From Halopseudomonas xinjiangensis (GTDB taxonomy: Bacteria > Pseudomonadota > Gammaproteobacteria > Pseudomonadales > Pseudomonadaceae): a DNA stretch of 64,000 nucleotides. Within the stretch, counting starts at the first letter, position 1. Each line of letters begins with the position of its first letter. Location of the stretch: NCBI GenBank assembly GCA_011050525.1, contig DRFO01000012.1:124001-188000 (forward strand), written 5' to 3'. Of this stretch, positions 13,265 to 57,297 are shown piece after piece. The notes beneath the pieces were generated by a model, which searched no databases, was not told the DNA's origin, and saw only the letters and a list, made by a program, of their open reading frames with translations. Made by a program: the position numbers and the translations under genes.

Positions 13265-13443
13265 TACGGCCCCCACTCGGGATCCAGATGCGACTATTAT
13301 AGATCCCTCAACCGCTTGCTTGAAACGGAACCCATGACTGAAAATCACCGTTACTGATTTCCAAGGAAACTAATGATACACCTCGCCAGACAGTGCTATC
13401 GTTTGGACTATTCCACGCATCGTACAGAAGGAGTGCTATACCC

Positions 13444-14874
13444 ATGAGCCACTACAAGCAGTTTTACATCAACGGTCAGTGGGTTGAACCCAAAGGCGAT
13501 AACACCGCAGAGGTGATCAACCCAGCAACCGAAGAAGTCGTTGCCACCATCGCCCTGGGCAATCACGAAGATGTCGATCTGGCCGTTGCCGCCGCTAGAA
13601 AAGCCTTCGAAACCTTCTCCCAGACCAGCCGTGAAGAGCGTATTGCACTACTGGGCAAAATCATTGCCGTGTTCCAAAAACGCCTGCCGGACGTCGCCGA
13701 AGCTATTTCCAAGGAAATGGGCGCCCCGGCCAAGTTGGCCAGCCAGGCGCAGGCTCCATCGGGTCTCGGTCATTTTGCCACGGCACTGGAAGTACTCAAG
13801 GACTTCGAATTCGAGGAGGAGATCGGCACAACGCTTGTAGTAAAGGAACCTATCGGTGTCTGCGGCCTGATTACTCCCTGGAACTGGCCCATCAACCAGC
13901 TGACCTGCAAGATCGCGCCAGCGCTGGCGACCGGCTGCACCATGGTGCTCAAGCCGTCGGAAGTGGCACCGCTGTCCGCCCTGCTACTGGCTGAAATTCT
14001 CGATGAAGCGGGTGTGCCGCCAGGGGTATTCAACCTGGTTAATGGTGACGGGCCCACTGTGGGTTCTGCCATGTCCAGCCACTGGGGAATCGACATGATG
14101 TCCTTCACCGGCTCGACCGGCGCAGGCCGGCAGGTCATGAAGAACGGTGCCGATACCATCAAGCGCGTTGCGCTTGAACTGGGCGGCAAGTCAGCAAACA
14201 TTCTACTGGACGACGTTAACTTTGAAAAAATGGTCGCCCACGGTGTGATGTCCTGCATGAACAACACCGGTCAGTCATGTAACGCGCCGACCCGTATGCT
14301 CGTGCCCAACAGCAAGATGGATGAAGTTACCGCCATTGCGCAAGCCGTGGCTGCCAAGGTCAAGCCAGGCGACCCCGATGCTCAGGATACGGTGATCGGA
14401 CCGGTTTCCTCAAAGAATCAGTGGAACAAGATTCAGGACCTGATTACCACGGGGATTGAAGAAGGTGCCAAAGTGGTTGCAGGCGGCCCAGGCCGTCCTG
14501 AAGGTCTGAGCAAGGGTTACTACGTCAAGCCGACCATCTTCAGCCACGTTACCAACGACATGACCATCGCCCGGGAAGAAATCTTCGGGCCGGTATTGTC
14601 GATCATTGGTTACGATACCGAAGACGAGGCGGTCAGAATTGCCAATGACACCAACTATGGCCTGTCCGGTTACGTGTCCTCCGGGGATCACGAACGCGCC
14701 CGCAAGGTGGCTCGTCGTATCCGTACCGGCATGGTCCATCTGAATGGTGCAATGCTGGACAACAAGGCGCCCTTCGGTGGATACAAGGAATCAGGAAACG
14801 GTCGCGAGTGGGGCCATTATGGCTTTGAGGATTTCCTGGAAGTGAAATCGATTTTTGGGTATGCCGCCAAGTAA
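13444..14874 (+). CDS. NAD(P)-dependent aldehyde dehydrogenase
   Basis: Oxidises an aldehyde to the carboxylic acid. The 476-residue product has the full ALDH fold: PWNWPINQ for the catalytic asparagine, FTGSTGAG for the nucleotide loop, Glu245 in LELGGKSAN and the nucleophile Cys279 in GQSCNAPTR. The substrate is not evident. AAGGAG lies about ten bases before this ATG; an upstream in-frame start at 13393 would add 17 residues without homology. It is transcribed alone and ends in a strong terminator. Confidence 0.92.
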   Translation: MSHYKQFYINGQWVEPKGDNTAEVINPATEEVVATIALGNHEDVDLAVAAARKAFETFSQTSREERIALLGKIIAVFQKRLPDVAEAISKEMGAPAKLASQAQAPSGLGHFATALEVLKDFEFEEEIGTTLVVKEPIGVCGLITPWNWPINQLTCKIAPALATGCTMVLKPSEVAPLSALLLAEILDEAGVPPGVFNLVNGDGPTVGSAMSSHWGIDMMSFTGSTGAGRQVMKNGADTIKRVALELGGKSANILLDDVNFEKMVAHGVMSCMNNTGQSCNAPTRMLVPNSKMDEVTAIAQAVAAKVKPGDPDAQDTVIGPVSSKNQWNKIQDLITTGIEEGAKVVAGGPGRPEGLSKGYYVKPTIFSHVTNDMTIAREEIFGPVLSIIGYDTEDEAVRIANDTNYGLSGYVSSGDHERARKVARRIRTGMVHLNGAMLDNKAPFGGYKESGNGREWGHYGFEDFLEVKSIFGYAAK

Positions 14875-45119: not shown

Positions 45120-46307
45120 ATGAGGAAGCTATCTGGACCACGGGTGCTGTTGATACTGGCTACGATGTCCCTGCTGGCCTGCGGAGAAGAAGAGCAACAA
45201 TCTTCCGAGCCACGCCCTCCTCCCCGTGTCGACGTGTTCACTGTTGAGGCGCAACCGGTTACCAATATCGTGGAACTGCCTGGCCGTGTTCAGGCAGTAG
45301 CCATTGCCGAAGTCCGCGCCCGGGTCGACGGAATCATCCAGAAGCGGCTCTATGAAGAAGGCACCGATGTCGAAGCGGGGGAACAACTGTTCCAGATCGA
45401 CCCGCGTGAGATGCAGGCCAGCCTCAACGCTGCGCAGGCAGCCCTCGACAGGGCCGAGGCCACAGCCGCCAACGCTGCCCAGGACGTAGAACGCTACGAA
45501 GGCCTGGTAGCCAAGCAGGCGATAAGCCAGCAGGAATACGATACGGCGCAGGCGCGCTTGCGCACCGCCCAGGCGGATGTTTCCGAGGCCGAAGCGGCGG
45601 TCGAGTCGGCAGAGCTCGATCTGGGCTATACGCGGGTCGAGTCGCCTATCGACGGGGTCGCGGGACGCGCCGAGGTAACAGTTGGTGCGCTGGTAACAGC
45701 CGCCAACGGTACGCTACTGACACGGGTGGAACAGTTCGACCCGGTTTACGTCAATTTTTCGCAGTCCAGCTCGGACCTACTGGCGTTACGCGCGCAGGTT
45801 GCCTCTGGCGAACTGGAACTGCCGGGGAAAGGCCGGGTTGCGGTGAATCTCATCCTCGAAAATGGCGGTGAGTACCCGCACACGGGGTATGTCGACTTCC
45901 TCGCCATGTCTATCGATAGGTCTACGGGTACGGTGGCCATTCGGGCCCAGGTGCCCAATCCTGATCGGTTGTTGTTACCCGGCCAGTTCGTCAGGGCGAG
46001 AATTCAGGCAGGTACGCGTCCGAGCGGATTGATCATTCCGCAGCGCGCCGTGATGATCACCGAGCGCGGTGCCAGCGTGATGGTGGTGAGTCAGGACAAT
46101 GTCGCCAGTTCACGGGATATAGAAGTTGGCGACATGCGTGACGGCAACTGGGTAGTGCGCAGCGGGCTGCAACCCGGAGAGCGGGTAATCGTCGAAGGTT
46201 GGCAGAACGTGCGGCCGGGGTCACCGGTCTCTCCAGTACCCGTGACCGCTGAAGGTCGCGATAACCAGCAAAGACAAAGCCCACCGGTTGAGGCTGCAGC
46301 CGAATGA
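45120..46307 (+). CDS. RND efflux periplasmic adaptor (MexA/AcrA family lipoprotein)
   Basis: Links the inner-membrane pump to the outer-membrane channel. The 395 residues begin with a lipoprotein signal (SLLACGEE; lipidated Cys near 21), then the barrel-sandwich halves (VRARVDGIIQKRLYEEGTDV, YTRVESPIDGVAGR) around a coiled-coil hairpin of about residues 95-165, and the membrane-proximal domain. ATGA overlap with the pump gene. No repressor gene is adjacent. Confidence 0.94.
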   Translation: MRKLSGPRVLLILATMSLLACGEEEQQSSEPRPPPRVDVFTVEAQPVTNIVELPGRVQAVAIAEVRARVDGIIQKRLYEEGTDVEAGEQLFQIDPREMQASLNAAQAALDRAEATAANAAQDVERYEGLVAKQAISQQEYDTAQARLRTAQADVSEAEAAVESAELDLGYTRVESPIDGVAGRAEVTVGALVTAANGTLLTRVEQFDPVYVNFSQSSSDLLALRAQVASGELELPGKGRVAVNLILENGGEYPHTGYVDFLAMSIDRSTGTVAIRAQVPNPDRLLLPGQFVRARIQAGTRPSGLIIPQRAVMITERGASVMVVSQDNVASSRDIEVGDMRDGNWVVRSGLQPGERVIVEGWQNVRPGSPVSPVPVTAEGRDNQQRQSPPVEAAAE

Positions 46308-49300
46308 CGCCCACGTTCTTTATTCGTCGCCCGGTTTTCGCCTGGGTTATTGCTCTCGGAATTCTACTAGGTGGCGCCCTCGCTCTTCGCAGCCTGCCTG
46401 TGGAGCAGTATCCTTCAATCGCCCCGCCGTCGCTGAGCATCAACGTCACCTACCCTGGCGCCGACGCCTCCGTTCTCGAAACCAACGTGACGCAAATCAT
46501 CGAGGAGGAACTCAACGGCGTCGACGGCTATCTGTACATGGATTCGACCAGCCGGTCGAACGGCAGTGCTTCCATAACGCTCACGCTGGAACCCGGCACC
46601 GATATCGACGTGGCGCAAATGGAGGTGCAAAACCTGCTGAGCCGCGTTGAACAGCGGCTTCCCGAGGAGGTGCGACGTCAGGGAATACGCGTATTCCAGG
46701 CCTCATCGAGCTTCGCCCTTATCGTCTCGATCATGTCTGAAAGCGGCGACATGAGCAGCCTGGAGCTAGGGCATTACGCGACCAGCAACATCATCAGCGA
46801 ACTGCGACGTGTGGAGGGTGTGGGCGATATCCGCGAATTCTACACGCCCTACGCCATGCGTATCTGGCTGAATCCCGACCGGCTGGCCAGTTTCGGCATT
46901 GCTGCAAGTGAAGCGTTGAACGCCGTGCGGGAGCAAAATAGCCAGGCGGCCGGCGGTGCCCTGGGCGACCTGCCGCTCAGTGAGGGGATCCAGATCACTG
47001 CACCACTGGAAACCCGCGGCCGCTTCACCACCCCCGAGGAATTTGCCGCGATCATTCTGCGCGCCGATCCCGATGGTTCAGTGATTCGCCTGCGCGATGT
47101 TGCTCGGGTGGAGCTTGGCGCGCAGAACTACAACTCCAGAAGCGAACTGAATGGTCAACCTACCGCGGGGCTCGCAATTCAGCTCGCTCCGGGCGCCAAC
47201 GCCCTGGATACGGCCCAGGCGGTCAAGGAACGCATGGCCGAGCTGGAGTCAGGCTTTCCGGATGACATCACCTGGACAGTTCCCTTCGACTCGACGCCTT
47301 TCATATCGGCTTCGATCAAAGAGGTCCTGGCAACCCTGCTTCAGGCAATGGGGCTGGTTGTGCTGGTGATGCTGGTGTTTCTGCAGAACTGGCGTACGAC
47401 CATTATCCCGACCATCGTAATACCCATCACACTGATCGGCACCTGCCTTGGCCTCTGGCTGTTCGGCTTCTCCATCAATCTGTTGAGTCTATTCGGTATG
47501 GTCTTGGCCATAGGCACGTTGGTGGACGACACCATTGTGGTAGTCGAGAACGTCAAACGCTTGATCGACGAGGAGGGCCTTGCGCCCTACGAAGCCACCG
47601 TCAAGGCAATGGGCGAAGTCTCTGCAGCCATCATCGGCACCACTCTCGCCTTGATTGCAGTATTCGTTCCGCTGGCCTTTTTTCCAGGGTCTACGGGCGG
47701 CATCTATCGTCAGTTCGCGGTGACGCTGTCTATCGCGGTGGCTATTTCAACCCTATTAGCCCTGACCCTGACCCCGGCCCTGTGTGCGACCCTGCTCAAG
47801 CCCCGTAAGGAGGATTCTGACAAGCCTGACTGGAGCCAGCGCATTTTTGCCCCGTTCAACCGGGGCATGGAAAGCGTGTCTGAGCGTTATAACCGAGCGG
47901 TAGGCGGTATCCTGGCACGCCCTGCTCTTTTTCTGTTGGGATTCGTCGCATTGATGATACTGACTGCCTTCCTGTTTATGCGCATGCCCAGCGCCTTCCT
48001 GCCAGAAGAGGATCAAGGCTCGGTAATGACAGTCATCCAGGCACCGCCTGGGTCGACCATTAAGCGTACGGCCGAAGCAATGGAGCAGGTGCAGGATTTT
48101 TATGCCGCGCAGCCCATCGTGGATGACACCATCGGCGTGTTCGGCTTCAGCTTCTTCGGGCAGGGTCAGGCCCATGCCATGGCCTTTGTGCGCTTGACGC
48201 CCTGGGGTGAAAGACCCGACGAAGACCAGAGTGCCCAAGCGCTGGTACGCAAGGCGATGGGGGCGTTTTCGCAGATTCAGGAAGCGCGCGTATTTGCCCT
48301 GAACCCACCATCCATACCTTCACTGGGCGTTTCAGGCGGGTTCAGCTTCAAACTGGAAGACCGCGGCGGCAACGGCTATGAAGCGCTGCTCGCTGCTCGC
48401 GACAAGTTGGTGGCAACCGCCAACCAGAGCGAGATTCTTGAAGGCGTACGCCCGGAAGGAGCTGATCAGGCGCCCAAATTGCGGGTGGACATCGACCGGA
48501 TCAAGGCACGCGCCCTGGGCTTGTCCATCAGCGACGTCAATACCGCACTGGGGACGGCCTTCGGTAGCGCTTACGCGAATGACTTCAATCTGGATGGGCG
48601 AGTCCTGCAGGTGCTGCTGCAAGCTGACTCGCCGTATCGCATGACGCCCGAGGATGTAACCAGCCTCAAGGTAATCAATGATCAAGGCGACAACGTACCG
48701 TTTGGCGCCTTCTCGACGGTCGGCTGGACGCAGGGCCCTACCCAGCTGCAGCGATATAACGGCTACCCTGCTGTGACCATTTCCGGTAACGCCGGCGCCG
48801 AATACACCACAGGCGAAGCCATGGCTGAAATGGCGCGCCTGGCCGGGGAACTGCCATCGGGGTTTGCCTTTGAATGGTCTGGCGCATCCTATGAGGAACA
48901 ACAGGCGTCCGGCCAGGTTGGTTTGCTGCTGGGACTGTCGATGCTGGTAGTGCTGATGGTTCTGGCTGCGCTGTATGAGAGCTGGACGATTCCGATTGCG
49001 GTATTGCTGGTGGTACCCTTCGGTGCGCTGGGCGCCATCCTTTTCGCCATGATGCGCGACCTTCCGGCGAATGTTTACTTCAATGTCGGACTGGTAACCA
49101 TCATCGGCCTGTCAGCCAAGAATGCCATTCTGATTGTCGAGTTCGCGATCGAAGAGGAAAACCGCGGCAAATCCCTTGTCGATGCGGTGATGAGCGCGGC
49201 GCGGTTGCGTTTTCGCCCTGTTTTGATGACCTCCCTCACCTTCATTCTTGGCATGCTGCCGCTGGTGCTATCCAGCGGAGCGGGTGCGGCGGGTCGGATT

Positions 49301-49465
49301 GCCGTCGGCACGGGCGTGATGGGCGGCATGATCCTCGCAACGGTACTTGGCTTGTTCTACATTCCGCTGTTTTACATGGCGGTGCGTCGCTGGCTGAGCC
49401 GCGGTCGCCAGCCCGGGCCAGCCCGCGAATCGAAGGATGACACGGAGGTTTCAGCCAATGACTAG
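46304..49465 (+). CDS. RND multidrug efflux transporter (MexB/AcrB family, HAE1)
   Basis: Proton-driven inner-membrane pump of 1053 residues with twelve helices. The proton-relay pair is visible in GTLVDDTIVVVENVKR and the partner lysine in GLSAKNAILIVEF. The N-terminal FFIRRPVFAWVIALG and GADASVLETNVTQIIEEE are typical of the HAE1 group. Substrates are probably hydrophobic drugs, solvents or dyes. The C-terminus overlaps the outer-membrane gene by eight bases. Confidence 0.96.
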   Translation: MTPTFFIRRPVFAWVIALGILLGGALALRSLPVEQYPSIAPPSLSINVTYPGADASVLETNVTQIIEEELNGVDGYLYMDSTSRSNGSASITLTLEPGTDIDVAQMEVQNLLSRVEQRLPEEVRRQGIRVFQASSSFALIVSIMSESGDMSSLELGHYATSNIISELRRVEGVGDIREFYTPYAMRIWLNPDRLASFGIAASEALNAVREQNSQAAGGALGDLPLSEGIQITAPLETRGRFTTPEEFAAIILRADPDGSVIRLRDVARVELGAQNYNSRSELNGQPTAGLAIQLAPGANALDTAQAVKERMAELESGFPDDITWTVPFDSTPFISASIKEVLATLLQAMGLVVLVMLVFLQNWRTTIIPTIVIPITLIGTCLGLWLFGFSINLLSLFGMVLAIGTLVDDTIVVVENVKRLIDEEGLAPYEATVKAMGEVSAAIIGTTLALIAVFVPLAFFPGSTGGIYRQFAVTLSIAVAISTLLALTLTPALCATLLKPRKEDSDKPDWSQRIFAPFNRGMESVSERYNRAVGGILARPALFLLGFVALMILTAFLFMRMPSAFLPEEDQGSVMTVIQAPPGSTIKRTAEAMEQVQDFYAAQPIVDDTIGVFGFSFFGQGQAHAMAFVRLTPWGERPDEDQSAQALVRKAMGAFSQIQEARVFALNPPSIPSLGVSGGFSFKLEDRGGNGYEALLAARDKLVATANQSEILEGVRPEGADQAPKLRVDIDRIKARALGLSISDVNTALGTAFGSAYANDFNLDGRVLQVLLQADSPYRMTPEDVTSLKVINDQGDNVPFGAFSTVGWTQGPTQLQRYNGYPAVTISGNAGAEYTTGEAMAEMARLAGELPSGFAFEWSGASYEEQQASGQVGLLLGLSMLVVLMVLAALYESWTIPIAVLLVVPFGALGAILFAMMRDLPANVYFNVGLVTIIGLSAKNAILIVEFAIEEENRGKSLVDAVMSAARLRFRPVLMTSLTFILGMLPLVLSSGAGAAGRIAVGTGVMGGMILATVLGLFYIPLFYMAVRRWLSRGRQPGPARESKDDTEVSAND

Positions 49466-50927
49466 GTTCGTGGCGCTGGGTCTCGTGCTGTTGCTTGGCG
49501 GTTGTCAACTCGCCCCCGAACATGAGCGCCCGACTCTTCCGACGCCCGACAGCTATCCCAAGGTATATTTGCCGGCGCTGGGCGAAGCCGTGGCCAGCGA
49601 TATCGCCTGGAGGGAGTTTCTCAACGACCCACGGCTGCGCGTGCTGGTGGACTCCGCGCTGATCAACAACCGGGACCTCCGGGTAGCCGTTGAACGCATC
49701 GAGGAGGCGCGCGGTCAGTTCCGGATTCAGGGCGCGAGTCGCTACCCTACGTTGGGCTTGAATGCTGACGCAACGCGCGGCCGGTTTCCAACAGGCGCAG
49801 GCGCAGGCGCCGGCGCCGGCACCACCAACGCCATTCAGGCCAGCGGCGCCAGATCCGGCATCGTCGAGCAGTTCTCGGTCGGTCTGGGCGTCACGGCTTT
49901 CGAACTGGATTTCTGGGGCCGGGTACGCAATCTTACCGAGGCCGCACGAGCTCAGTATCTATCGACCATCGAGGCTCAGAGAGCTTTTCGCCTCTCGTTG
50001 ATTGCGGATGTAGCTTCAAGCTATCTGGACCTGCGCGAGGCCGACGAGCGGATCGCGCTGGCCAGAGCTACCCTGCAAAGTCGGCAGGACGGGCTGCGCA
50101 TAGCCAGAGTACGCCTGGACGCGGGCATTACCTCGGCACTCGACTGGAATCAAGCGCAGGCGCTGCTGACCCAGGCTGAAACCGAACTGGCTGGACTGCG
50201 CCTGGCTCAAGCGCAGCAACGCAATTTTCTGATTCAGCTGGTCGGCGGCGAGATCGACCAGAATCTGCCCGCCCCGGTGCCCCTCGCAGCACAAATTGAC
50301 CAGCGGATATTGGCGGCAGGTCTGCCTTCGGAGCTGTTGTATATCCGTCCGGACATTCTCGCTGCGGAGGAAAGTCTGCGGGCGGCGCGTGCCAATATAG
50401 GTGTGGCACGCGCCGCATTCTTTCCGCAGATATCACTTACCGGCAGCTTTGGTTATGCCTCGACCGAGCTCAACAACCTGATCAGCAGCGACAATGAAAC
50501 CTGGAGCATCGGCCCGACCATCAGCCTGCCGCTGTTCGATTTCGGGCGCAATCGAGGCAATCTTACCGTGGCGCAAGCTCGCCAGAATATCGCGGTGGCG
50601 GAGTATGAATCAGCCATTCTGACCGCCTTCAGAGAAGTGGCCGACGCACTGGCCGGGCGGCGCTATCTGGCAGAGCAGGTCGCGGCGCAACTGGAAAACG
50701 TGGCCACCTTGCAGCGTATTGCCGATCTGGCAGAAGAGCGGTATGCCGAAGGGGTGGTGAATTATCTGCAGGTACTGGATGCGTCACGCAATCTGTTTCA
50801 AGCCGAGCAGGAATTCGTTCAAATCAAGCGGGCTCAGGTGCAGAATCTGCTGGAGCTGTATATCGCTCTGGGCGGGGGTACAACCAGCGGCGGTGAGCCA
50901 GCACCGGATAATCTCGACCGCGACTAA
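49458..50927 (+). CDS. RND outer-membrane channel lipoprotein (OprM/NodT family)
   Basis: A 489-residue trimeric exit duct with lipobox LLGGCQLAPEHERP and two TolC-like repeats. Near residue 110 it has an unusual low-complexity run GAGAGAGAGTT, encoded by about four tandem GGCGCA/GGCGCC hexamers (from 49795), in a region facing the outside in OprM. I place the start at 49458, nine bases after GGAGG, overlapping the pump gene. Confidence 0.94.
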   Translation: MTRFVALGLVLLLGGCQLAPEHERPTLPTPDSYPKVYLPALGEAVASDIAWREFLNDPRLRVLVDSALINNRDLRVAVERIEEARGQFRIQGASRYPTLGLNADATRGRFPTGAGAGAGAGTTNAIQASGARSGIVEQFSVGLGVTAFELDFWGRVRNLTEAARAQYLSTIEAQRAFRLSLIADVASSYLDLREADERIALARATLQSRQDGLRIARVRLDAGITSALDWNQAQALLTQAETELAGLRLAQAQQRNFLIQLVGGEIDQNLPAPVPLAAQIDQRILAAGLPSELLYIRPDILAAEESLRAARANIGVARAAFFPQISLTGSFGYASTELNNLISSDNETWSIGPTISLPLFDFGRNRGNLTVAQARQNIAVAEYESAILTAFREVADALAGRRYLAEQVAAQLENVATLQRIADLAEERYAEGVVNYLQVLDASRNLFQAEQEFVQIKRAQVQNLLELYIALGGGTTSGGEPAPDNLDRD

Positions 50928-50998
50928 CGCTTACGCAGGTTGAACCTCGACGTTCTGCCTGCCTCCAATTAAGAAGTACGTCACTCGAGGAGTCATTT

Positions 50999-51424
50999 AT
51001 GCAAGTTCAGGTAAACAGCAATCACATCGAAGGCAGCGTCGAGCTTCAGGAATGGGTGGGCTCGGCGGTAGTTGAGCAACTGCAGCGCTTCGACGACCTC
51101 CTCACCCGCGTGGAAATCCACGTCAGCGATGAAAATGCCCACAAGGGCGGCGCGGAAGACAAGCGTTGTCAGATTGAGTTTCGTCCCAAGGGGCACCAGT
51201 CGATGTCGGTCACGCACAAGGCTGAATCCCTGGTCCTGGCAGTAGACGGCGCCGCCGCCAAAGCGCGCCACGCACTGGAACATCTGGTAGGCAAACTCGA
51301 CGCCAGAACGGTCTCCACCGGACACCTGGACGATCCGCTGCTTGAGGAGGAACCCAGAGCAGTGAAGGATGCGCTATTACAAGAAGAATTCCTCGCCAAG
51401 CAGGACGACCTGAACAAGGAGTAA
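50999..51424 (+). CDS. Ribosome hibernation promoting factor (HPF/RaiA family)
   Basis: Binds the small ribosomal subunit and silences ribosomes in slow growth. A 141-residue protein with the RaiA fold: MQVQVNSNHIEGSVELQEWV, RVEIHVSDENAHKGG and a short variable C-terminal tail with many acidic residues. This is not the rpoN-linked hpf gene context. GAGGAG precedes the ATG. Monocistronic. Confidence 0.85.
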   Translation: MQVQVNSNHIEGSVELQEWVGSAVVEQLQRFDDLLTRVEIHVSDENAHKGGAEDKRCQIEFRPKGHQSMSVTHKAESLVLAVDGAAAKARHALEHLVGKLDARTVSTGHLDDPLLEEEPRAVKDALLQEEFLAKQDDLNKE

Positions 51425-51482: not shown

Positions 51483-52484
51483 TCAGCGCCGGTCACGCGC
51501 CACACCTTCGCGGAATTTGTGCGGGGCCGCGACAATGGACGCGGTAACGCTGCGGATGTTTTTGTCGAATACCGGAATCGCCAGAACGAGCGTCGTCAGC
51601 ATGCTCACTATTACCAGCAGGGCCAGTAATGCTGGCTCGCCCAGCGCCCCGCCTCCTCCGAACGCCGCTCCCCAGAACTTCACCACGAAACCATGAAGCA
51701 CAAAGATAGCCAGGCTTCTCTGACCTATGCGTGAAACCCAGCTCGCTGCGGTGGGCATGCAGGCAAAAAACGCAAACATCGAAAGGGTTGCCAGGGCCAG
51801 CAAACCGGACCTGAGCAGGTAGCCGGTTAAATCGTTGGTCCCAAGCAACGTGAAGGAAAAGGATCCATACAACCAACGATGGTCGATGCCCGACGAGTAG
51901 ATGACCGCAGCGCATCCTATCAATAGCGGCACGGCTGCAAACCTTGCAAGCGACAGCGACTGCAGCATGGCGATAGCCTGTTTACCGTACAACTGACCAG
52001 CGACGAAAAACGGCAGGAACACCAGCGTGCGGCTGATGCTCAGCAGAAAGCCGTCATCCGGGATGGCACCCGCCCCTATCGAAACTGCAATGGAAATGGG
52101 CAGCGCCCAGGGTATGCGAGTGATGAGCGGCAGTAACAGCATCCACCAGATAAGCGATAGCAGGAACCACAATATCCAGTACGGCTGCAGTAATCGGTTG
52201 GGTAGTTCGCCTGTGCTTGCCAGGACCGGAGCCAGGTAGGCAATCTGGAAAATACCCAGCATAACCGCCAGCCTGGCGACCCGCAGAATCAGGTTGTCCT
52301 GCTTCGCAGTGATGCCGGAGAGAAAGACGAACGCGGGCATGTGAAATATGTAAATCGCCGTCAGCACCATCCTGAAGAAGGGACTCGTCCAGCCGCCCAC
52401 TTCCTCAAGAAAATGCCCAAGCACTACCAGGAAGATCAACCCTGCCTTGGCGTTATCGATTAGATCGTTACGCAAGCCTGCCAT
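51483..52484 (-). CDS. Acyltransferase-3 family membrane protein
   Basis: A 333-residue integral membrane protein with about ten helices and the acyltransferase-3 start: NAKAGLIFLVVLGHFLEE (with the conserved histidine near 23) and IFHMPAFVFLSGITAKQ. Members transfer acyl groups, usually acetyl, to sugars of surface glycans. Last gene of the MBOAT-FkbH-ACP-SGNH operon, 41 bp after the SGNH gene. Whether it adds a second modification or works in the same transfer chain is open. Confidence 0.88.
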   Translation of the reverse strand: MAGLRNDLIDNAKAGLIFLVVLGHFLEEVGGWTSPFFRMVLTAIYIFHMPAFVFLSGITAKQDNLILRVARLAVMLGIFQIAYLAPVLASTGELPNRLLQPYWILWFLLSLIWWMLLLPLITRIPWALPISIAVSIGAGAIPDDGFLLSISRTLVFLPFFVAGQLYGKQAIAMLQSLSLARFAAVPLLIGCAAVIYSSGIDHRWLYGSFSFTLLGTNDLTGYLLRSGLLALATLSMFAFFACMPTAASWVSRIGQRSLAIFVLHGFVVKFWGAAFGGGGALGEPALLALLVIVSMLTTLVLAIPVFDKNIRSVTASIVAAPHKFREGVARDRR

Positions 52485-52525
52485 GCCTCGGGCTCAGGAG
52501 AAAGCGGCTGGGTAATGGCCACAGC

Positions 52526-53563
52526 TTAACGTCCACCTAGCAAGAAGCCCTTGAATTGATTATAGAGTTCACGAGAAACCGCCTGTGAGAACCGTTGTGC
52601 GGCGGGCCAGCGCATGTGGATAGCGTCGACGAAGGCCTCCTCACCTGGTTTCCACTCTGTATCGGCGTCCCAGTAATGGGCTCCGGTGCTTTCCAGTGAA
52701 CTGACTATTTCGTGATTGAAGTTAGCCAAAAAGCTCCCGTCAGGGTCCATTTGCGCTTTCCAGTCCGGATGCAGCGGTGTGGAAATGACCATGAACTTGC
52801 GACCGCCTTCCTTGAGCTGGCTAGCCAGGGAATTCAACGCCTCGAAGCAGGTTGGATCAAGCGGGTCTGGCTCCCCGTAGAACAAGCCCCTGCTCTGGTC
52901 AGTCAGAAAGGGGCCGTCCCCATATTTGGTAAATACCAGCGAATTCATCTCGGTTTCGTTTGTGCGCTGATCCTGGACCGTCAGCGCATTGCGCATGAGC
53001 GATACCGGGGCAAAATAGCGCATGTAGTAAGGGAAGGCTGGCGCATCTTCATAGACATAATCGTCGGCGTCGTTGCGGTCAAAAACTGCCTCTGGCACCT
53101 TGCTGCAACTGGCGAAGTCAATCGGATCGATGATCATCACCACTTCCTTGATGGTCGGCTCGCGCTCCAGCAGCCAGTCCGCGACGTAAAGGGTCTGGTT
53201 GGCCTGAAGTCCGCAGAAAGCGCCGTTGAGAGGGCGAGTTCCAGGAAAATGAGATGCCAGCGTTGCCCCGTCAACATGTCTCCAGGCGACCGAAGACCCT
53301 ACCACCAGCAGGTTGGGATCTTCATACGGGTTGTCGCGCATGAAACTGAGTTTTTCATCCACACACAGACTGTTGGAGAACGCCGGAGGTGGCAGATTAT
53401 CTGTAACGTGCAATCCAAAGAGGAACAGGCAAAACGCGATCAGACACGCCAGCATGCCGCCCAACAATGAAAACAGATAACCTGACGGCAAGCTGGCAGA
53501 CTGGACGGAATCCACTCCGCCCTGCTCATTCACCTTGTCGTCATCTGTAGTGTCGTTGGACAT
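52526..53563 (-). CDS. Membrane-anchored SGNH/DltD-like protein
   Basis: A 345-residue protein with a 28-residue cytoplasmic tail, one membrane helix (about 29-51) and a large periplasmic domain. VVGSSVAWR at 87-95 gives a GDS-like nucleophile serine (Ser90/91) and DAIHMRW gives the DxxH pair (Asp313, His316), the SGNH-hydrolase/AlgJ-AlgX/DltD pattern. Next to MBOAT and a carrier protein it should act in acyl transfer to, or removal from, the target polymer. The start is at 53563 (MSNDTTDDDK), five bases after the carrier-protein stop codon; its ribosome binding site is weak, suggesting coupling. Confidence 0.8.
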   Translation of the reverse strand: MSNDTTDDDKVNEQGGVDSVQSASLPSGYLFSLLGGMLACLIAFCLFLFGLHVTDNLPPPAFSNSLCVDEKLSFMRDNPYEDPNLLVVGSSVAWRHVDGATLASHFPGTRPLNGAFCGLQANQTLYVADWLLEREPTIKEVVMIIDPIDFASCSKVPEAVFDRNDADDYVYEDAPAFPYYMRYFAPVSLMRNALTVQDQRTNETEMNSLVFTKYGDGPFLTDQSRGLFYGEPDPLDPTCFEALNSLASQLKEGGRKFMVISTPLHPDWKAQMDPDGSFLANFNHEIVSSLESTGAHYWDADTEWKPGEEAFVDAIHMRWPAAQRFSQAVSRELYNQFKGFLLGGR

Positions 53564-53568
53564 CGAGA

Positions 53569-53814
53569 TTACCCGTTGAGCTTCTTGCTGATTAACTGTG
53601 CGAAGTGACCGACATTGTGCAGAGAATCCAATTCTGCCGTCCGGAACTTGACTCCAAAACGCTGTTCGGCGGCCACGATCAGGCTCACATGCGCCAGACT
53701 GTCCCAACCTTCAATATCTTTGGCTGTGGTATCGGGTGTGAGTTCGATATCGTCGTCATCGAACATGTCCTGAAAAATCGGATTCAGAGCGGTAAGCACT
53801 TCTTGTTCATTCAT
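53569..53814 (-). CDS. Dedicated acyl carrier protein
   Basis: An 81-residue carrier protein with the phosphopantetheine site at Ser39 in GWDSLAHVSL, and strongly acidic helices. It is not the fatty-acid ACP, which sits in the fab cluster; this one overlaps the end of the FkbH gene by eight bases and should carry the unit that FkbH activates. Confidence 0.92.
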   Translation of the reverse strand: MNEQEVLTALNPIFQDMFDDDDIELTPDTTAKDIEGWDSLAHVSLIVAAEQRFGVKFRTAELDSLHNVGHFAQLISKKLNG

Positions 53815-55735
53815 GTTTTTCGATCTCTATAAAGTGTGTGACAGTAGGTTTGGCATTTAAGTCATAACGCCAGAACGTTGCGTCCGATTCCGCCCCTTCG
53901 GGCGCCTGTCGATTGGCGAAGCCGAGCCGAGGGTAGTGCTCGGCGACCATACCGTTACGTGCCGTAGGCCGGTACTCTCCCACCAGTGCCGACCACCCCG
54001 CCTCGGTGGCCCATGCCGCCACCACCTCGAGCACGGCCTGTTCCACCTGGCGCCCGAGCACCCGGCAACTCATCAGCCAGCTATCGATCAACAGTTCATC
54101 GGTCTCAAGGCTCGAATCTGACCGTGCCAATACCACGCTGATCAGTCCGTTATCGCCAAATTTGTCCCGCAGGCGCACAGCCAGCGCCAGCGCGCCTGGG
54201 TCTTCTGCCAAACGCTCCACCTCGGCTTCGCTATAACGCCTGGTGGTTAGGTTGAACTGATTAGTCTTGTTAATGAGCTGGGTAGTTCTCGGCAATTCTG
54301 CCGGGCCGACCAACGTCGTGGTCAAAATCATTTCCAGGCCGCGCAGATAGCCTTCAATGTCCGTGGCCTGGGTCAACGCGGCCTTGCGCTCGGCGTTCAG
54401 GGCATAGCTGCGGCCACGGGCTGCATCATCGGACGTGAAGGAAATTGTCTCGAAATACCCTGCAGCGGCCAGGCAGGCTGGATAATCCGAAACGTCTTCG
54501 GACAGCTCCGGCACCCCTACTTCAGGCAATTCGCGTCGCACTATATCCCGCTCGGCGGGGTTATCGTCTACGAAGACCAGGCTGTCCAGACCGATATCCA
54601 GCATCGAGGCGATGCGCCGCAGGTTGCCGGCCTTGTCTTCCCAGTTGGCAACGAACGCTGCAATATCGGCGCGCTTGAGCACCATCTCAGGATGCTCGAA
54701 GGCGGCTTCGGCGACCGCCATGTCATTCTTGCTGCATACAGCGAGAATGATCCCGCGCTTGGCCAGCAGGGCGGCGTAGTGCTGGAAAGCCAGAAAAGCC
54801 TCGCCCGTCGGGGTTCCCTGACCCAGATGGATGCCCTCCACGCCATCGTCACCGATCACGCCGCCCCAGAGCGTGTTGTCCAGATCCAGTACCAGACACT
54901 TGCGCGATAGCCCAGCGGCGGCGGCAGCAACACGCGCCAGCTGATCACCATACAGGGGAGCAAGATTGGGGCTGACCAGCTGTTTGGCCTGGTGCCAGCG
55001 CACCGGGTCACCCAAGCCTTTGCCGTAGAATCCCTGGGCGGCCTGCCAGGCCAGGTCGAGCAGCAGGACGCCATCTCGGCGTGCCGCCTCGCGAATGGCC
55101 GTATTCAACCGTTCGGTCAACGCATAGGGAGCGGCAGGCACCAACGCCTCGAAGGACCCGAAAACAGGCGGATCGAGGGGTACCAGGGTCTGCTGGACCA
55201 TCTGCGCGGCATAGCGGGTTTTTGCTGCAGACCATAACTGACGCAACTCCTCGACTCTGGCCTGCACCGCGGCGGTAACATCTTCCTCGGAGCTTTCCAG
55301 CGGCAATTGCAGTGGCGCGTCCCGCGCATCCAGGGCCAGCACTACGAGCTGGGGCGCGAAGCCAGCCATCTCCGGATCGTCCATCAACAATGACTGACGA
55401 TACATACCATAGGGTGCAACATATACCGACAGCGCCAGCCGACGATGCAGGCCGGCGACTCGGAACGCGGGCACCAGGTGATCTATGGTATGCGAAGAAA
55501 GAATCGCCACGCGCAGTGGGGTGAGCCCTGCGGTTTTGCAGGCACCCTTGGCGACCAGATCGGCAAGCAGTTTGCCCGCCGTCCGGTCCAGGCGGTTGGT
55601 CAGCGTGAAATCCCGGCGGTATCCGGCTAACTGGGCAAAGGTGTCCAGACATTTCGCCGGGTCGGTTTCCTGCCTCGCTTCGCCAATGGCCGCGCCAAGA
55701 TCGGCATGGTTTGGTAGCCAGAAAAGCTGGTCCAT
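53807..55735 (-). CDS. FkbH-type HAD-IIIC enzyme, predicted to load a C3 unit on the carrier protein
   Basis: The 642-residue protein has an N-terminal domain of about 270 residues (with IREAARRDGVLLLDLAW), a HAD-IIIC phosphatase-like domain with LVLDLDNTLWGGVIGDDG (about 278-295) and FVDDNPAERDIV, and a C-terminal GNAT-like domain (about 450-610) with INKTNQFNLTTRRYSE and GEYRPTARNGM. FkbH enzymes dephosphorylate 1,3-bisphosphoglycerate and transfer the glyceryl group to a carrier protein in polyketide pathways. No polyketide genes are nearby, and the carrier gene follows directly. AGGAG lies eight bases before the ATG. Confidence 0.88.
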   Translation of the reverse strand: MDQLFWLPNHADLGAAIGEARQETDPAKCLDTFAQLAGYRRDFTLTNRLDRTAGKLLADLVAKGACKTAGLTPLRVAILSSHTIDHLVPAFRVAGLHRRLALSVYVAPYGMYRQSLLMDDPEMAGFAPQLVVLALDARDAPLQLPLESSEEDVTAAVQARVEELRQLWSAAKTRYAAQMVQQTLVPLDPPVFGSFEALVPAAPYALTERLNTAIREAARRDGVLLLDLAWQAAQGFYGKGLGDPVRWHQAKQLVSPNLAPLYGDQLARVAAAAAGLSRKCLVLDLDNTLWGGVIGDDGVEGIHLGQGTPTGEAFLAFQHYAALLAKRGIILAVCSKNDMAVAEAAFEHPEMVLKRADIAAFVANWEDKAGNLRRIASMLDIGLDSLVFVDDNPAERDIVRRELPEVGVPELSEDVSDYPACLAAAGYFETISFTSDDAARGRSYALNAERKAALTQATDIEGYLRGLEMILTTTLVGPAELPRTTQLINKTNQFNLTTRRYSEAEVERLAEDPGALALAVRLRDKFGDNGLISVVLARSDSSLETDELLIDSWLMSCRVLGRQVEQAVLEVVAAWATEAGWSALVGEYRPTARNGMVAEHYPRLGFANRQAPEGAESDATFWRYDLNAKPTVTHFIEIEKHE

Positions 55736-55758
55736 GGAGACTGCTCCTTTTCGAATCG

Positions 55759-57297
55759 TTAGAACTGGAAGTACAGGAACTCAGTCGGCGCGGCTGAAAA
55801 CGCCACCGCAAGCGCGAAAAAGCCTGCCACGCCGACCCCCACGCCGATCACGGGGGTAGGCCGCCAGCTGACGAAGGGGAACCAGCGTTCGAGCCAGTCT
55901 TCCCGAGGGTGAAAGTTCAGCGCGGTGCGGAAGTGGCTCATCCATTGCTCCACATTCGGCAAAAACCAGACCATCAATAGCAGACTGCCGATCAGCATCG
56001 CGTCGTCACGATAGAAAGTGGTATCCCAACCGCCCAATCCGACCATGCCATAAAGCACCGTCATGGCTGCCGGAACGCTTTCAGCGCGGAAAAAGACCAA
56101 AGCAACCACTACACAGCCGAAGGTGATGAGCACTGCAATCACGTGATACAGAAGGTTGTCGCTATCCAGCGACCAGCCACGGCGAACCTTGTAAGCGCGC
56201 CAGCCATGGGCCACCACCAGATAGAATCCATGTAACAGACCGAACACGATGAACTGCCAGCCGGCACCGTGCCACACGCCAGAGATGAACATGGTGAGAA
56301 TCGTCGGATAGGCCACCAGAGCAGCAAAGGTTCCAGCCGTCATCTTGCCCCGGCGCGGCTGCGGCTTGCCCGCCGCCATTCTGGCCCGGGTCATGCGCAT
56401 GACAATCGGATTGTAGATATAAGCTGTGAGAAAACGGGTCAGCGTCATATGCCAGCGTGACCAGTACTCGATTACGTTGTGCGCCTTGAACGGGCTGTTG
56501 AAATTGGCCGGCAGGCTGATGCCGAACAGCAGCCCCAGGCCGATGGCCATATCGCTGTAGCCGGAGAAATCGAAGTAGATTTGCAAGGTGTAGGTCAGGG
56601 CCGCTGTCCAGGCCTCGAACAGAGACGGGATGGTGCCATTGGCCGCCGTCGCGAAGATAGGCGACGCCATCTGTCCCAACGGGTCGGCAATGATCACCTT
56701 CTTGAAAAGACCCAGCAGGAAGATGGTCACCCCGATGGAAAAGGTATCGATCCTGATGCTGAAGGTTTCACGTTTGTTGAACTGCGACAGCATTTCCCCG
56801 TGGTGGGTGATCGGGCCGGCGATCAGCTGCGGGAAGAACGAAATGAACAGGCAGTAGTTGGCAAAGTTGTGCTCCTGCACCTCACCGTCGTGAGCGTCTA
56901 CCAGATAGGCAATCTGTTGAAAGGTGAAAAATGAAATGGCCAGGGGAAGAATGATGTGGCCTATCGACCAGCCCATGCCCAGGACGCCATCCAGCGTGCC
57001 GAACAGAAAACCGGTGTATTTGTAATAGCCCAGCAACAGGACATTCGCCCCTACCCCCAGAAACAGCGCAGCCCGCGAAGGATTGCGAACCAGATAACCG
57101 CCGACCAGATAGTTGAATATCATGCTGCCCACCAGCAACGGCAGATAGCTTGGGTTCCACCAACTATAGAAAACCAGCGAGGCCAGCGTCAGCCAGATAA
57201 CTGCCAGGCGCTGCAGACCGCTGCGGGTGAGCAAAAAGAACCCGAGCAATACAAGCGGAAGAAAACCCGCAATGAATATTGGCGAGTTGAATAGCAT
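55759..57297 (-). CDS. MBOAT family O-acyltransferase (AlgI/DltB type)
   Basis: A 512-residue polytopic protein that moves acyl groups across the inner membrane onto an extracytoplasmic acceptor. It starts MLFNSPIFIAGFLPLVLLGF as AlgI does, contains YWSRWHMTLTRFL and the invariant catalytic region GVWHGAGWQFIVFGLLHG (about 335-357). The ATG at 57297 fits the family start; the open frame goes 19 codons further up. First gene of the operon, 23 bp before fkbH. The genes alg8/alg44, algJ and algF are absent, so this is not the alginate cluster. Confidence 0.92.
   Translation of the reverse strand: MLFNSPIFIAGFLPLVLLGFFLLTRSGLQRLAVIWLTLASLVFYSWWNPSYLPLLVGSMIFNYLVGGYLVRNPSRAALFLGVGANVLLLGYYKYTGFLFGTLDGVLGMGWSIGHIILPLAISFFTFQQIAYLVDAHDGEVQEHNFANYCLFISFFPQLIAGPITHHGEMLSQFNKRETFSIRIDTFSIGVTIFLLGLFKKVIIADPLGQMASPIFATAANGTIPSLFEAWTAALTYTLQIYFDFSGYSDMAIGLGLLFGISLPANFNSPFKAHNVIEYWSRWHMTLTRFLTAYIYNPIVMRMTRARMAAGKPQPRRGKMTAGTFAALVAYPTILTMFISGVWHGAGWQFIVFGLLHGFYLVVAHGWRAYKVRRGWSLDSDNLLYHVIAVLITFGCVVVALVFFRAESVPAAMTVLYGMVGLGGWDTTFYRDDAMLIGSLLLMVWFLPNVEQWMSHFRTALNFHPREDWLERWFPFVSWRPTPVIGVGVGVAGFFALAVAFSAAPTEFLYFQF

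Follow-up and report, generated by a model that had tools for sequence, protein, structure and literature searches.

How is an acyl carrier protein (ACP) loaded in a Dlt-like operon that encodes no DltA-type ligase? This question is raised by a five-gene operon of Halopseudomonas xinjiangensis (assembly GCA_011050525.1, genome 92 percent complete), which lies in an analysed stretch of 64,000 nt (contig DRFO01000012.1, positions 124,001-188,000), hereafter called the window. From position 57297 down to 51483, the minus strand encodes an MBOAT acyltransferase, an FkbH-type enzyme, a carrier protein, an SGNH protein and an acyltransferase-3 (AT3), with 23 bp between the first two genes, 8 bp shared by FkbH and its partner carrier gene, and gaps of 5 and 41 bp after the carrier and SGNH genes. 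Based on Pfam and NCBIfam profile searches, four of the five proteins match a family model, the SGNH protein being the exception; a DltA-type ligase is not among the five, which all belong to other families, and FkbH stands in the place of DltA. The first four genes form a real, widespread and mechanistically coherent carrier-linked, Dlt-like module with FkbH as the probable loader. As a whole, this module can be considered, with moderate confidence, a machine for carrier-dependent O-acylation of a glycan, i.e. a Dlt pathway in which FkbH replaces DltA and the DltX tail is fused to the DltB-like protein.

Conservation was analysed in 81 loci, being the window and the best 80 of at least 580 confirmed FkbH relatives in GTDB genomes, some of which are truncated by the end of a contig. 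Of these loci, 75 have a carrier gene, 50 an MBOAT and 20 an SGNH protein of the window's family. Therefore, the co-localisation of the block genes is not a matter of chance. Carrier and MBOAT occur together in 48 loci and neither of them in four. The four-gene block recurs in Stutzerimonas, relatives of Roseomonas, Acetobacter, Sphingomonas and Bradyrhizobium. FkbH-linked MBOATs are present in Pseudomonadota, Acidobacteriota and Nitrospinota, the latter two phyla also having the combination of FkbH, carrier and MBOAT. Among the 20 SGNH-bearing loci, four gene orders are observed, one of them divergent: MBOAT-FkbH-ACP-SGNH (window, L051-L062, L064 and L065), SGNH-MBOAT-FkbH-ACP (L063 and L066), FkbH-ACP-MBOAT-SGNH (L070 and L089) and SGNH-MBOAT divergent from ACP-FkbH (L108). 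The pairwise protein distances are correlated, with Mantel r values, inflated by shared species history, of 0.74 for FkbH-MBOAT (46 loci), 0.89 for FkbH-SGNH and 0.97 for MBOAT-SGNH (19 loci each, leaving out L062, whose SGNH is cut), 0.67 for FkbH-ACP (75 loci) and 0.66 for MBOAT-ACP (46 loci); none of 2000 permutations reached the observed value for any pair.

The first-pass annotation, made from the window alone, counted AT3 as a member of the operon and proposed a search for co-occurrence of the five families across genomes. Such a search shows MBOAT, FkbH, carrier and SGNH recurring together, and AT3 not following them. Although AT3 is a clear member of its family (PF01757, E 1.8e-14), it is present in only one of the 81 FkbH loci, that of the window itself, and in three of 298 genomes of the family, 46 of which have FkbH. 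The other two AT3 genomes are not among these 46, and no FkbH is found in 9 and 18 kb around their AT3; one of them (G062) also lacks FkbH in a separate scan. AT3 was consequently rejected as a fifth member: the conserved unit consists of four genes and AT3 is a local neighbour.

The most direct support for FkbH acting in place of an adenylating enzyme comes from a swap of the loader. An MBOAT tree was constructed from 48 FkbH-linked and 25 unlinked sequences (73 in total; a quick tree with Shimodaira-Hasegawa approximate likelihood ratio test (SH-aLRT) support only and some long branches). The linked set comprises 46 MBOATs plus L141 and L151, L069 being excluded for an apparently frame-shifted tail; most of it was chosen for similarity in FkbH, the unlinked set for similarity in the MBOAT. 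On this tree, the linked/unlinked label changes 5 times, compared to a mean of 20.9 after shuffling, and one starred clade of 36 MBOATs holds 34 linked members and only two unlinked ones (L143 and L144). In wider stretches around these two (L199 in genome G207 and L200 in genome G196, both of the same class as the window's genome), no FkbH is found. Instead, both encode an AMP-binding ligase (PF00501, E 3.4e-55 and 4.4e-53) with DltA as best NCBIfam model (E 8.5e-107 and 3.1e-98, with scores that stay below the curated cut-offs), together with a PP-binding carrier. Among solved structures, the L200 ligase best matches an adenylation module of gramicidin synthase (E 1.2e-80), with DltA next (E 1.2e-71). 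Since two MBOATs inside the FkbH-linked clade have a DltA-like ligase and a carrier but no FkbH, the two loaders fill the same slot within the clade.

The MBOAT, carrier and ligase of L200 share a strand, whereas in L199 the MBOAT gene is convergent with those of the ligase and carrier. Like the window, these two loci combine an MBOAT of the same clade without the PLGGN-type loop discussed below with a carrier gene. They differ from it in the ligase, in an acyl-CoA dehydrogenase-like gene present in both, and in two ALGX-family proteins preceding the MBOAT in L199 and an AlgF match in L200. These loci point to another kind of carrier-linked acylation, in which the group transferred may be an oxidised aminoacyl, and a ligase of this type is also encoded in three genomes of another family (G199, G222 and G300). 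An AMP-binding gene is further present near the unlinked MBOAT of L166, where no carrier was found, and somewhere in the FkbH loci L084, L086 and L110.

A second line of evidence concerns the way in which the carrier might dock. DltC contacts DltB at Met302, Val305, Ile306, Met309, Lys312 and Arg317 of helix HC, as described in PMC11035591. The pairwise alignment of the window MBOAT with DltB is ungapped from the RWH motif into this stretch, the first five contact positions corresponding to N296, V299, M300, T303 and R306. A comparison by alignment column (38 linked and 23 unlinked MBOATs, excluding ten divergent linked and the two DltA-type sequences) shows that residues 298-312 of the window MBOAT are filled in most linked MBOATs and gapped in 21 of the 23 unlinked ones, which have a PLGGN-type loop instead. 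All 73 MBOATs were then checked sequence by sequence. The loop is absent in 45 of the 46 readable linked MBOATs (L118 and L123 have no readable RWH motif), the only exception being L151, whose FkbH is on the opposite strand. It is also absent in both DltA-type MBOATs and in linked MBOATs outside the main clade, namely an eight-row group including the Acidobacteria type, the Nitrospina type, L124, L128 and L141. Among the remaining 23 unlinked MBOATs, the strict loop is present in 19, a variant of it in L145 and L152, and neither form in L146 and L149. No carrier was found near 18 of the unlinked MBOATs other than L146 and L149 (20 of 25 scanned, some regions stopping short at the end of a contig); for L143 and L144 the wider stretches were inspected, and for L155, L162 and L167 the 1.5 kb flanks only. 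The exchange of loop for helix may thus be a useful but imperfect marker of carrier use.

Of the individual proteins, the window MBOAT matches PF03062 with 92.9 bits (cut-off 27, E 3.1e-26) and the DltB model TIGR04091 with 195.7 bits, under the cut-off of 375, and no second PF03062 match was found in the window's genome. The only solved relatives found for it are DltB structures (6bug/8jem, E about 2e-30). H283, H343 and Y509 are invariant across 29 aligned MBOATs. The protein, which has its SGNH partner gene in the operon, ends in FLYFQF, fitting the acyl-shuttle motif FXYXXF given in PMC12148441; the tail of DltX is FLYFGF (PMC11035591). Among 47 complete MBOATs of FkbH loci (excluding five partial or short rows, i.e. 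two L057 fragments, L074, L092 and L105), 40 carry the strict F.Y..F tail and 46 a looser form.

For the SGNH protein, no Pfam or NCBIfam family was found at E 0.001, the only weak match being DltD (E 0.057), and TIGR04092 (DltD) gives 12.7 bits against a cut-off of 150. The GSS and DAIH motifs are present, with Gly89, Ser90, Ser91, Asp313 and His316 invariant in 14 sequences; judging from the motif, Ser91 is the putative nucleophile. The predicted model (predicted local distance difference test score 91) has a single long N-terminal helix, and its top PDB match is DltD (3bma, E 5.6e-6), followed among other esterases by 6pfx, 6o93 and 7dxm, with PatB at rank 42. Together with the DltB structures as sole solved relatives of the MBOAT and the DltA-like swap inside its clade, this lends good support to the core of the first-pass annotation, i.e. 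MBOAT, carrier and DltD-like protein with FkbH in place of DltA. Its coordinates, tight spacing and annotations of the MBOAT, FkbH, carrier (Ser39) and SGNH protein (GSS, DAIH) were also confirmed (Table 1). A scan for promoters and terminators was uninformative, with 2 promoter-like sites compared to 2.7 in shuffled sequences and 10 terminator-like sites compared to 6.7 (sd 2.4).

Table 1. Positions of the operon genes and of two MBOAT elements in the window
Feature	Position	Strand	Details
MBOAT acyltransferase (DltB-like)	55759..57297	-	512 aa; PF03062
C-terminal FLYFQF, acyl-shuttle motif FXYXXF (Tyr509)	55762..55779	-	motif match
MBOAT residues 298-312, aligned with DltC-contacting helix HC of DltB	56362..56406	-	alignment
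FkbH-type enzyme	53807..55735	-	642 aa; GDSL-like N-terminal part, HAD-IIIC, GNAT-like C-terminus; TIGR01686
Dedicated acyl carrier protein	53569..53814	-	81 aa; phosphopantetheine site Ser39; PF00550
Membrane-anchored SGNH (DltD-like) protein	52526..53563	-	345 aa; G89-S90-S91, D313, H316
Acyltransferase-3 (AT3), accessory neighbour	51483..52484	-	PF01757

The window FkbH scores over the cut-off of TIGR01686 (288.2 bits, cut-off 146.65) and just under the Pfam cut-offs of FkbH_N (26.9 vs 27) and Lipase_GDSL_2 (30.3 vs 32.9). D284, D286 and C557 are invariant in 37 aligned sequences, and Cys557 may carry the acyl group. The best match of its predicted model is 3slr, followed mainly by GNAT acyltransferases. 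The carrier matches PF00550 with 29.1 bits (cut-off 20.8), with Ser39 within GWDSL, and the NCBIfam DltC model with 19.6 bits, under the cut-off of 68; the phosphopantetheine serine is conserved in all 75 carriers of FkbH loci. In PMC7489565, the formation of glyceryl-ACP is attributed to FkbH-like proteins that act with stand-alone carriers, and FkbH takes the A-domain position in polyketide and nonribosomal peptide pathways (PMC8949500, PMC7489565). By analogy with these published FkbH proteins, the acyl group would be glyceryl.

An alternative is that the same machine transfers another C3 acid, or a glyceryl altered on the carrier, e.g. by O-methylation, before export. FkbH products undergo oxidation and methylation in polyketide pathways (PMC7489565), and in three loci (L100, L104 and L113) a methyltransferase gene on the same strand separates FkbH from the MBOAT, which suggests O-methylglyceryl in these three. 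However, no oxidoreductase or methyltransferase is seen among the open reading frames of the window operon (by reading, with the five genes profile-scanned). Therefore, plain glyceryl is the simplest product here and the alternative is unlikely. A link of the module to gellan is doubtful, since gellan bears L-glycerate whereas D-1,3-bisphosphoglycerate is given as the substrate of FkbH domains (PMC9104527, PMC8949500).

With glyceryl as the acyl group, the pathway might run as follows. FkbH would take D-1,3-bisphosphoglycerate, remove a phosphate and load glyceryl on the phosphopantetheine of the carrier. The loaded carrier would then dock on the cytoplasmic helix of the MBOAT, which would move glyceryl through the membrane onto Tyr509 of its own C-terminal FLYFQF tail. 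From there, the membrane-anchored SGNH protein would take glyceryl on Ser91 and esterify an extracytoplasmic glycan, perhaps a rhamnose-containing or capsule-type one.

The acceptor is the weakest step of this pathway because no glycan genes adjoin the block in the window: on the plus strand at 45120-51424, genes resembling an RND efflux set (fusion protein, pump and outer membrane factor) and the ribosome hibernation gene HPF are located, along with other housekeeping-like genes in the neighbourhood (labels by reading). A surface glycan, one of the two acceptors proposed in the first-pass annotation beside a lipid, thus finds no hint in the window, and it is the genes beside the block in some other genomes that suggest a glycan. 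Sugar-nucleotide genes adjoin the block in 8 of 19 named SGNH-family loci, a raw count without a random-locus control and with query proteins drawn from these same loci. In L052 (Stutzerimonas azotifigens), RmlD directly follows SGNH and a polysaccharide pyruvyl transferase is also present; L055 and L057 have an RmlD relative near the block, L063 has a dTDP-4-dehydrorhamnose 3,5-epimerase (RmlC) beside it, and in L064 (Acetobacter garciniae) an epimerase and a nucleotidyltransferase follow SGNH. Relatives of sugar-nucleotide genes are also found in L065, L070, L089 and L113 (the latter outside the 8/19 count), and L098 and L100 have weak nucleotidyltransferase matches. In further Stutzerimonas copies, the adjoining genes are unrelated and encode a BrkB-family protein, a sulfate permease, regulators and LpxR; the LpxR gene, of the outer membrane lipid A deacylase family, directly follows the block at about 13290-14273 in the Stutzerimonas-type loci L056, L057 and L058. 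On plasmids, an FkbH match is present in 116 records, three of which were inspected. On pSymB of S. meliloti strain ml47, an MBOAT, a protein annotated as TonB-dependent receptor which carries GGSTT and DPGH motifs, a carrier and FkbH lie beside capsule export genes including RkpR. A Rhodobacteraceae plasmid has carrier, FkbH, MBOAT and a gene without name in consecutive order. The third, a Niveispirillum cyanobacteriorum plasmid (L136, 7983-11025), carries a polysaccharide gene of the WcbI family after FkbH and carrier, and no MBOAT, so glyceryl-ACP may feed WcbI-type enzymes too.

Another possibility might be that the acceptor is a lipid or a secreted small molecule. The efflux-like and housekeeping neighbours of the window fit such a role, as does the assignment of MBOATs to natural products of the aeruginosin type, in which FkbH-loaded glycerate is also present (PMC10143770, PMC13122637). 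However, some relatives adjoin RmlD, RmlC, a sugar nucleotidyltransferase, an epimerase or capsule export genes, and envelope polymers are the substrates described for DltD-like and other SGNH partners of MBOATs (PMC12148441), which leaves this alternative only a small chance compared to the glycan acceptor preferred here.

Besides the neighbourhood of the window, several observations weigh against a carrier-fed machine loaded by FkbH. Only three of the five aligned contact positions keep their character in the window MBOAT (V299, M300 and R306, and not N296 and T303). Some outlying loop-free linked MBOATs are shorter at this stretch, so that the absence of the loop there need not mean a helix, and the carrier predicted near the loop-free unlinked MBOATs L146 and L149 was found in neither case within about 9 kb. 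The DltD fold match of the SGNH model reaches a template modelling (TM) score of only about 0.4. The FLYFQF tail was rejected as a specific marker of the FkbH system: all 27 MBOATs fetched by MBOAT similarity carry the shuttle motif, which is therefore general to the family and not particular to its FkbH-linked members. FkbH is within 10 kb for only 16 of the 150 MBOAT matches listed from a phylum sample of 398 genomes; therefore, the MBOAT family is broad, FkbH linkage marks a part of it, and most relatives do something else. Finally, FkbH and carrier occur without an MBOAT in 27 of the 81 loci, and glyceryl-ACP would therefore serve other acceptors too. It might even be that MBOAT and SGNH carry out ordinary acetylation from acetyl-CoA, with FkbH and carrier as mere neighbours making glyceryl-ACP for something else, as neither carrier nor FkbH is near most of the related MBOATs examined and non-Dlt MBOAT/SGNH pathways are said to use acyl-CoA without a carrier (PMC12148441), but this is very improbable in view of a linkage that persists in four gene orders, an MBOAT clade that is mostly dedicated, correlated protein distances, the DltA-type loader swap and the absence of the PLGGN-type loop in linked MBOATs.

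The history of the block was also considered. FkbH is present in five other genomes of the window's genus. In two of their loci (L186 and L188), the block is flanked by an HPF gene and an exonuclease III-like gene (HPF in L186 by Pfam, the exonuclease by reading); in L189 and L190 these two genes are within the same 19 kb without flanking the block, and in L184, the closest same-genus FkbH (87 percent identity), neither is present. In the window, relatives of HPF and the exonuclease III-like gene are located at 51.0 and 61.7-62.5 kb, with HPF opposite in orientation to the block. This suggests an old site of the block within the genus, with rearrangement. On the MBOAT tree, Pseudoroseomonas and Belnapia sequences group with Pseudomonas-type ones (98-percent SH-aLRT), and such a grouping of Alphaproteobacteria with Pseudomonas types would fit a transfer between classes. 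A relative with a 76 percent identical MBOAT has no FkbH match, but part of its region reads N and it counts neither way. FkbH-carrier pairs without an MBOAT include that of the actinobacterium Mycobacterium sp. 1245111.1 (L078), whose FkbH is 48% identical to that of the window, and those of L073, L076, L082 and L083, which all share one large gene; in L073, this gene is located after the carrier and encodes GT2 and GT9 glycosyltransferase domains.

Compared to known systems, the module shares an MBOAT, a dedicated carrier, a DltD-like SGNH protein and an FXYXXF shuttle tail with Gram-positive D-alanylation (DltA-B-C-D-X). It differs in having FkbH for DltA, the shuttle tail on the MBOAT itself, Gram-negative hosts and a predicted glyceryl group, and a teichoic acid acceptor is not expected. 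With the MBOAT/SGNH acetylation systems PatA/PatB, AlgI/AlgJ/AlgX and WssH, it has in common an MBOAT with a C-terminal shuttle tail and an SGNH protein. These systems are set apart by their description as carrier-free and acyl-CoA-using in PMC12148441; the module, in contrast, has a carrier gene in the operon and no PLGGN-type loop of carrier-free MBOATs. Like the glyceryl-loading units of polyketide synthases and nonribosomal peptide synthetases, it contains FkbH and a stand-alone carrier, but here the pair is joined to a membrane acyltransferase instead of a synthase or synthetase line.

The statement in the first-pass annotation that no characterised system has this set agrees with the open-access literature, subscription papers being mostly outside the scope. 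No paper on FkbH with an MBOAT acting on a surface glycan was found there, with broad topics covered in part, which makes the novelty provisional. There, FkbH together with MBOAT is a matter of aeruginosin-type peptides (PMC10143770, PMC13122637), and a Campylobacter paper on a flagellar glycosylation locus mentions an fkbH-domain gene in a strain comparison.

Beyond the window, there may be a widespread Gram-negative pathway class, for and against which the chances are close to balanced, in which carrier-fed MBOATs, with a docking helix for the PLGGN loop, decorate surface glycans and in which loaders are interchangeable, mostly FkbH for glyceryl and a DltA-like ligase elsewhere. The difference between loop and helix may then serve as a sequence marker for the acyl source of a bacterial MBOAT, i.e. 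carrier protein or CoA. If true, the logic of Dlt, carrier-fed acyl transfer across the membrane, would extend to Gram-negative bacteria, the acyl source being a glycolytic intermediate, and the module would provide gene candidates for glycerate esters that occur on bacterial glycans and still lack assigned genes.

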